42,917 bases of DNA from Candidatus Tayloriibacteriota bacterium (lineage in GTDB: Bacteria > Patescibacteriota > Minisyncoccia > Phycocordibacterales > PALSA-1337). Under the pieces are notes generated by a model, which saw only the letters and a program-made list of their open reading frames with translations, did no database searches and was not told the DNA's origin. The stretch spans positions 125,124-168,040 of the forward strand of contig PLXZ01000004.1 of NCBI GenBank assembly GCA_003151615.1, in the 5' to 3' direction. How positions within the stretch are numbered: the first letter of the stretch is position 1; every line of letters starts with the position of its first letter. Below are positions 23,976-26,023 of the stretch, in pieces. A program made the position numbers and the translations under genes.

Positions 23976-24665
23976 ATGGAAATAATCCCCGCAATATTGC
24001 CGAAAGACTTTGCCGAGCTCGAGGAAAAAATCGATCTTGTTGCTGGCGTGTTGATTGAGCGAAACACGAGCGTCTCTGGTCCGACAATCCAAATCGACAT
24101 TTGTGACGGAAAATTAACGCCGAAACCGGCATGGCCCTACAAAAAACACGACAATAATTTCGAGGCTATTCTCGCCGAGGAACGAGGTCTTCCGCACTGG
24201 GAGGATGTCGATTTCGAAATGGATCTCATGATTGCCGACCCGGAGTTGGAACTGGAAAAATGGATTGCTTCCGGCGCGAAACGTCTTGTCATCCACTTTA
24301 AATCAACAAAAAATATGGACCGGATTATTGGCGAACTGCAGGGTCTCGTCGAGATCGGAATTGCCATCGATCTTGATACGCCGGTCGACGACATCGCACT
24401 TTTTATAAACGACATCGATTTCGTCCAGTGCATGGGAATTGCAAAGCCCGGTTTTCAGGGCCAGCCGTTCGACGACCGCGTCATCGCCAAAGTCCGCGAA
24501 CTGAAGGAACGCTTTCCTGAGCGCATAGTTTCTGTTGACGGGGGAGTGAATATGGAGACCGCGCCTTTGTTGCGCGACGCCGGCGCAGACCGTCTCATCA
24601 TCGGTTCTGCCATTTTCGACAGCGAAAATATCGCGGAGACGATTGAGGAGTTTGAGAGTTTGTAA
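23976..24665 (+). CDS. rpe: Ribulose-phosphate 3-epimerase-like protein
   Basis: MEIIPAILPKDFAELEEKI, IQIDICDGKLTP, MGIAKPGFQGQPFD, VSVDGGVNMETAPLLRDAGADRLIIGSAIF. Confidence 0.85.
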   Translation: MEIIPAILPKDFAELEEKIDLVAGVLIERNTSVSGPTIQIDICDGKLTPKPAWPYKKHDNNFEAILAEERGLPHWEDVDFEMDLMIADPELELEKWIASGAKRLVIHFKSTKNMDRIIGELQGLVEIGIAIDLDTPVDDIALFINDIDFVQCMGIAKPGFQGQPFDDRVIAKVRELKERFPERIVSVDGGVNMETAPLLRDAGADRLIIGSAIFDSENIAETIEEFESL

Positions 24666-24686: not shown

Positions 24687-25146
24687 ATGGATAATCCAAA
24701 AGTAACAGTTCGGGGGGGGGCAGAAATTCGGTAAGGCGATTTTTGCGAATGCCGATATAAAAGCCGGAGAAATTATTTCGGAATTCGACGGAAAAATCTG
24801 GAATTGGGATGATCCGGATTGGACTCAGGAAATGATGGACCATGTTATTCAATTTGAAGAAAAAAAGTGGCGCGACTCAAAAGGAATTGCCCGTTGGATC
24901 AACCATTCATGCGAACCAAATTGCGGAGTTAAAGATTTATTCAAAATTGTCGCGATGAGGGATATAAAATCAGGTGAAGAAATCACCTGGGATTATGAAA
25001 TGACAGAGAAACATCCATGGTGGAGAATGAAATGCGAGTGCGGCTCAAATGATTGCCGAAAAATTATCGGAAATTATGACAACATGCCGCAGGCGATTCG
25101 GGACAAATACAAGGGTTATATTTCAGAGTGGCTTACAAATAAATAA
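24687..25146 (+). pseudogene. SET-domain protein, frame interrupted at a G9 homopolymer (possible phase-variable gene)
   Basis: ATG at 24687 leads to G9 (24712-24720), then TAA after CGG. Deleting one G gives MDNPKVTVRGGQKFGKAIFANADIKAGEIISEFDG...ARWINHSCEPNCGV...SGEEITWDYE...CECGSNDCRKIIG. Confidence 0.85.
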
Positions 25147-25180
25147 ACCGTTTGTTTGTGTTTTGGTGTATAATATCCCC

Positions 25181-26023
25181 ATGTCTCTCACTGATGAGCA
25201 GGTTAAAAAACTGGAGAAGAAGGCCCATGACATCCGGGTTTCCATCATTGAAATGCTGATTGAAGCGAAGTCGGGGCACACCGCCGGTCCTCTTGATATG
25301 GCGGATATCTTTACCTATTTATATTGTCCGGCCGGAATGAAATATGATGCGAAAAAGCCGGATTGGCCGGAACGCGACCGATTGGTTTTGTCGAACGGCC
25401 ACATTTGTCCGGTTTTGTACGCGACGATGGCGCATTCGGGATATTTTCCGATGGAGCGTTTGAAGACTTTGCGGAAACTCGGTTCGCCGCTCCAAGGTCA
25501 TCCTCACCGCGAATGGTTGCCGGCTCTTGAAACGAGTTCGGGTCCGCTCGGTTGCGGATTGTCGCAGGCTGTGGGAATGGTTTTGGCTGATCGCATCGAC
25601 AACGGACGCACGGCATCGCGCCGGATTTTCGCATTGCTCGGCGACGGGGAATTGGACGAGGGCAACAATTGGGAGGCGGCCATGCTCGCGGGCAAGGAAA
25701 AGCTCGGCCCATTGATCGCCATCGTCGACCGCAACAACATTCAGATTGACGGCTTTACCGAGGATATCATGCCGCTCGAGCCTCTCGCCGACAAATGGCG
25801 CGCGTTCGGCTGGCACGTCACGGAATGCGACGGCCATAATTTCCGCGACATCGACCGCGCGGTGGGCGAAGCTCGCGCTGTTTTCGATAAGCCGTCGGTC
25901 ATTTTGGCCCGTACCATCGCCTCAAAAGGCGTTCCCGAATTCGAGCGTCACTTCGAATGGCACGGCAAACCGCCGACCACGCCGGAAGAAATTGCGGTTG
26001 CCAGAAAGGCTTTGCATAATTGA
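25181..26023 (+). CDS. Transketolase, N-terminal subunit
   Basis: EAKSGHTAGPLDMADI, SNGHICPVLYA, LGDGELDEGNNWEAAM (TPP site); start 6 nt after TATAAT. Confidence 0.93.
   Translation: MSLTDEQVKKLEKKAHDIRVSIIEMLIEAKSGHTAGPLDMADIFTYLYCPAGMKYDAKKPDWPERDRLVLSNGHICPVLYATMAHSGYFPMERLKTLRKLGSPLQGHPHREWLPALETSSGPLGCGLSQAVGMVLADRIDNGRTASRRIFALLGDGELDEGNNWEAAMLAGKEKLGPLIAIVDRNNIQIDGFTEDIMPLEPLADKWRAFGWHVTECDGHNFRDIDRAVGEARAVFDKPSVILARTIASKGVPEFERHFEWHGKPPTTPEEIAVARKALHN

Follow-up and report, generated by a model that had tools for sequence, protein, structure and literature searches.

We propose that the run of nine Gs near the start of a SET-domain gene in this Patescibacterial genome is a poly-G contingency, or phase-variation, locus with a consensus state of OFF, a reading that concerns one allele in one genome and that we hold to be rather probable. 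In this model a gene for a SET-type protein lysine methyltransferase would have been horizontally acquired, and replication slippage on its G run would add or remove Gs, uncorrected because MutS is missing. A tract of 8 (or 11) Gs would let the ribosome make a 152-residue methyltransferase, and 9 or 10 Gs would lead it to an early stop or into the wrong frame. This model is the best supported because the same architecture recurs in the genome, the family and the order, because the tracts of relatives vary in length and because MutS is absent; as the SET tract follows a design that relatives use repeatedly, phase variation is raised to the most likely reading, at a confidence somewhat better than even. 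Variation of the SET tract within the population is inferred.

The interrupted SET gene and its neighbourhood

The features concerned lie in the window, which is the whole stretch of 42,917 nucleotides that was analysed:

23976..24665, + strand: ribulose-phosphate 3-epimerase gene (rpe), the conserved upstream neighbour of SET
24687..25146, + strand: SET-domain gene (PF00856), frame-broken by G9, with its ATG at 24687 and its true stop at 25144-25146
24712..24720, + strand: G9 homopolymer, the proposed slippage tract, in-frame class 3n+2 (8, 11)
24721..25143, + strand: downstream SET coding frame of 141 codons, with NHSCEPNC, GEEITWDYE and the post-SET cysteines
24732..24734, + strand: premature TAA, reached by translation from ATG 24687 with nine Gs
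25181..26023, + strand: transketolase N-terminal subunit gene (tkt), the conserved downstream neighbour of SET

Eight codons stand between the ATG and the G9, which is bordered by C in the window sequence and occupies codons 9-12. An earlier, sequence-only reading had described the run, the MDNPKVTVRGG that leads into it and a TAA five codons beyond it, and all three are present as described: translation with nine Gs proceeds from MDNPKVTVRGG through GCA GAA ATT CGG to the TAA at 24732-24734 and yields MDNPKVTVRGGAEIR, and the frame that opens at 24721 continues for 141 codons up to the TAA at 25144-25146. If one G is taken out, the gene encodes a full SET protein whose alignment to homologues, among them MDNPKVRVRRTNKYGKGVFA (L025), needs no gap, and in this alignment the MDNPKVTVR before the tract and the frame after it form one protein when the tract has eight Gs. 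Tract length sets the reading frame, coding is intact on both sides, and the run is a non-triplet repeat of the hypermutable type within the 5′ coding sequence.

The same reading had proposed that eight Gs give a complete SET protein with NHSCEPNC, SGEEITWDYE and a post-SET CxCGSxxC, and this is borne out by the frame and by its motifs, the last of which reads CxCGSNDC. A search of this translation against Pfam matched PF00856 at 59.5 bits (cut-off 22.4; E 4.8e-16), and the nearest solved structures among the PDB matches are histone methyltransferases of the MLL1/KMT2A type. Catalytic and Zn-binding motifs are intact and the alignment with homologues reveals no second lesion. At the N-terminal GxG motif for SAM binding the window protein reads GKA; GKG or a similar triplet is usual among the homologues, with GRA in L027 and GKC in G042. 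The product is predicted to methylate lysine.

The homologues aligned come from Parcubacteria, Planctomycetes, Bdellovibrionaceae, Doudnabacteria and Verrucomicrobia, and the G tract is absent from all of those examined, which spell the same residues with other codons (CGG CGG ACG at the tract site in L025). Homologues with a fixed frame and no tract had been named as evidence against a switch, and such homologues do exist, but they are at most 65% identical to the window protein and belong to other lineages, so that they only show the tract to be new in this lineage. The proposal of a phase-variable contingency locus is partly supported, by architecture, frame effect and recurrence in the genome, family and order, with the missing tract of the homologues counting against it.

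In the window the gene order is gapdh-rpiB-rpe-[SET]-tkt, and the string of gapdh, rpiB, rpe and transketolase N-subunit is kept across the family. SET stands between rpe and tkt in the window genome only; in G049, the only same-genus genome, about 41 bp separate rpe from tkt with nothing in between, and no SET gene was found. As the sugar-phosphate cluster is conserved elsewhere without SET, the gene is an insert and not a component of the cluster and, judged from gene order, is a recent lineage-specific insertion. The sequence-only reading had placed SET inside a sugar-phosphate cluster and called this unusual; the location is correct, but a SET gene is not unusual in this order, since 193 of the 397 genomes sampled have a match. 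No relative of SET was found among the viral contigs searched, and a phage origin is therefore not supported. A TATAAT seen by eye at 25169-25174, ahead of the transketolase gene, suggests that this gene has its own promoter, in which case the frame state of SET need not affect transketolase.

The window genome (G000) comprises 923 kb in five contigs and is about 92% complete. It belongs to a Patescibacterial (CPR) order that includes Candidatus Taylorbacteria bacterium RIFCSPLOWO2_01_FULL_45_34b, whose record matches a locus of G240, a member of another family of that order, with full identity along 3,405 bases. Counted on both strands, its G tracts comprise three of G9, four of G8 and nine of G7, with none longer than G9; within the window all other G runs are of six or fewer, and 17 window genes have no G or C run longer than five. 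GGG makes up 9.6% of glycine codons in the window and CGG 12.1% of arginine codons, from which the chance of Arg-Gly-Gly being written CGGGGGGGG (CGG GGG GGG) is about 0.001, a figure calculated post hoc. That a genome of this size should contain a G9 at some place is not unlikely, and it is position and frame effect that matter; with about three G9 tracts per 923 kb, one falling by chance at the start of a gene would be no great rarity, which speaks against a switch. Chance alone is not rejected by that density, and is rejected only when position and the family pattern are taken together. The third G9 of the genome, L008 (G000:C5:232163-232171), is intergenic, upstream of an MBL-fold protein gene (RNase-like by eye), and no part for it in a gene or promoter is evident.

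Loss of MutS leads to more homopolymer slippage. MutS (MutS_V, PF00488) was not found in the window genome, whereas the same search gave a match in 11 of 14 reference genomes; at about 92% completeness the absence of MutS is likely but not certain.

Repeats at avd 5′ ends and at other sites in the family and order

The second of the three G9 tracts breaks the avd gene of a diversity-generating retroelement (DGR) near its start, as the G9 of the window does SET. This DGR (L005, G000:C5:41960-44967) is verified by its reverse transcriptase (RVT_1, E 5.5e-24), by a TR/VR pair in which 15 of 15 mismatches fall at TR adenines, and by an Avd that matches bAvd PF22296 (46.0 bits, cut-off 40; 8.1e-12) and reaches 59.5 bits against NCBIfam NF033474, under the cut-off of 80. 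Its tract, a C9 in avd (G000:C5:43460-43468), lies eleven codons after an ATG, and the gene is out of frame. A second reverse transcriptase match in the genome, at G000:C5:74301-75327, is divided between two frames, with identities of 42% and 55%, and is possibly a broken DGR.

In the family we collected 97 distinct tracts, made up of runs of at least nine Gs from 53 genomes together with the G8 runs of the window genome. A third of these (33/97) belong to loci that encode a DGR-type reverse transcriptase and, on the opposite strand, Avd; the tract is at the avd 5′ end in all of these loci but L138, whose tract falls within the reverse transcriptase gene. Among the best-matching reverse transcriptase loci from other families of the order, 25 of 25 carry G6-G12 at 20-57 bp before the reverse transcriptase start, which is again the avd 5′ end. 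Order-wide, the DGR avd 5′ ends (L113-L204, L263-L317) carry C6-C13, (CA)n, (GA)n or a heptamer repeat. Starts without poly-G include (GA)12 in L266, (CA)5 in L265, a heptamer repeat in L274 and, in the same-genus genome G049 (L270), a (CA)16 that is out of frame. None of the CA, GA or heptamer units is a multiple of three.

With the start codon taken as an ATG at most 80 bases upstream of the repeat, 52 repeat-bearing avd genes could be assigned a start, and the frame is broken in 36 of these, kept in 11 and ambiguous in 5 (another gene lacks an ATG), in a catalogue of one genome per species from unknown sequencing platforms in which a consensus length hides mixtures. The avd genes without a repeat, one of which has only C4, are by our own reading of the sequences in frame in 7 of 7 cases, at least one locus (L138/L291) being counted twice. 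This difference gives a Fisher p of 1.8e-4, which like our other p-values is indicative since the family and order tract sets are non-random and related loci are not independent. The in-frame share of the repeat-bearing genes is statistically indistinguishable from one third (p = 0.17), as is expected if tract length drifts freely. Furthermore, the avd tract is 11 long in L123 and 9 in L133, two loci that match at 97% and 96% in the 300 bp on each side of it, so that the tract was altered while its flanks hardly were. Programmed frameshifting as an explanation for avd is disfavoured, since 13 out-of-frame genes would require a shift in one direction and 20 in the other. Taken from sequence comparison, avd is probably phase-variable through non-triplet repeats across the order. 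Contigs often stop within about 50-120 bp of a G tract (for example L183, L189, L191 and L194), perhaps through population heterogeneity or through assembly breaks at low complexity.

Further tracts lie outside avd. In L127 (G025:C4:329-337) and L160 (G046:C67:5405-5413) a G9 lies in the signal-peptide region of a predicted surface-protein gene, both genes are out of frame, and their in-frame lengths of 8/11 are of the same class as that of SET. Of 58 other family tracts, 11 have a -10-like hexamer within 3 bases after the tract against a background of 5.4% (p = 2.4e-4, under a loose -10 definition and for the -10-like hexamer only). In 9 of these 11 (L128, L135, L140, L146, L148, L150, L159, L183 and L188), which frequently precede genes for secreted or surface proteins, a TTGC of the TTGCNN type occurs at about -35, spaced by 17-19 bp, an arrangement like that of contingency tracts in promoter spacers. 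Where poly-G adjoins a -10 box in the family, it may be regarded as marking a candidate phase-variable promoter. Two G8 tracts of the window genome likewise precede predicted secreted protein genes: L004 (G000:C5:5252-5259) beside a TATAAT, and L082 (G000:C5:282752-282759) just 5′ of TTGACC-N17-TTAAAG.

Alternative explanations for the SET tract

As SET is a recent lineage-specific insertion, a one-off frameshift and a consensus error both have to be weighed. The first of these would make SET a young pseudogene, produced by a single +1 slip in a dispensable, recently inserted gene of a mismatch-repair-deficient genome, with no maintained switch. The restriction of the insert to the window genome, its absence from G049, the failure to find MutS and the single genome that carries the allele all fit this account, and the insert may well be dispensable and decaying. 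However, the gene retains all catalytic motifs and has no further lesion, a run of GGG codons that is rare for the genome and absent from homologues points to the tract itself having been built up, and like architecture is found in avd and in signal-peptide genes. We therefore regard decay of this kind as unlikely.

A true tract of eight Gs, misread in the consensus, would leave SET plainly ON. One-base homopolymer errors are the commonest errors of assembly, the homologous frame is the 8-G frame, and the platform of the window assembly is unknown. On the other hand, by inspection the window genes near A7/A8 and T7-T9 runs show no frame breaks, two other genes of the window genome (the helicase of L003, and L007) contain G8 tracts that are in frame, and frame-breaking tracts occur in many independently assembled genomes. 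We consider such an error distinctly improbable, and a true G8 would still be slippage-prone.

Constitutive, low-level recoding of the G9 into full-length SET, by transcriptional slippage or programmed ribosomal frameshifting, would suit the intact downstream frame and the slipperiness of homopolymers for polymerases and ribosomes, but we give it very little credence, as tract lengths differ between near-identical avd loci and, by analogy, no single programmed frameshift would serve avd genes that need both directions.

Relation to known switches and meaning for the Patescibacteria

Simple-repeat phase variation is known mostly from host-adapted Proteobacteria. Poly-G/poly-C phase-variable genes are described in Neisseria, Campylobacter and Helicobacter, for example hmbR/hpuA (PMC3786947) and in H. 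canadensis (PMC2823697), and the SET locus resembles them in its 5′ coding G/C tract, its length-set frame and its intact coding on both sides; in those genera, and perhaps in the window family too, further tracts lie in promoter spacers. It differs in its Patescibacterial host without MutS and in its target, a SET lysine methyltransferase known here from sequence alone, where the targets in those genera are surface-modifying enzymes or receptors. In Orsi et al. 2010 (PMC2831843) homopolymeric tracts at gene 5′ ends are treated as a general means of inactivation, with the poly-A of Listeria inlA as an example, and the tracts described there share with that of SET a position near the gene 5′ end and a frameshift, in SET presumably reversible, leading to a short peptide, although poly-A/T is over-represented in their survey and the SET tract is poly-G.

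The SET core, NHSCEPNC, GEEITWDYE and post-SET cysteines are shared with SET lysine methyltransferases such as MLL1/KMT2A, unlike which the window protein is a short, stand-alone bacterial protein with the tract inside its N-terminus. Phasevarions are built on phase-variable DNA methyltransferases. A repeat-switched SET methyltransferase could similarly alter many targets at once, but its fold is that of a protein methyltransferase and not of a DNA methyltransferase.

According to Roux et al. 2021 (PMC8144416), DGR clade 2 is restricted to Patescibacteria, and the DGR of the window genome is like the Patescibacterial DGRs reported there in having a reverse transcriptase, a bAvd and an adenine-mutated TR/VR pair; the main text makes no mention of Avd, frameshifts or simple-repeat tracts at the avd 5′ end. 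A paper on hypervariation in Gracilibacteria has a 9-mer tripeptide repeat as its subject. In the literature searched we found no report of simple-repeat phase variation in Patescibacteria/CPR, of a phase-variable SET protein or other phase-variable protein methyltransferase, or of a repeat-gated Avd, an Avd frameshift or a DGR with a homopolymer.

Taken together, we think it reasonably probable that an order-wide phasome made up of poly-G tracts and further short repeats, unstable without mismatch repair, switches avd, surface-protein genes and the window SET. A switch design of the Proteobacterial type would then operate in Patescibacteria, which are ultra-small and uncultured, and a protein methyltransferase would be among its candidate targets. 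The wider finding, weightier than the SET tract, is the probably repeat-gated Avd of Patescibacterial DGRs, for if the phasome reading is true, retroelement hypermutation would itself be gated by repeat slippage at avd. Slippage would in that case be nested above retroelement mutagenesis, one diversity generator over another, and this would bear on surface variation by episymbionts.
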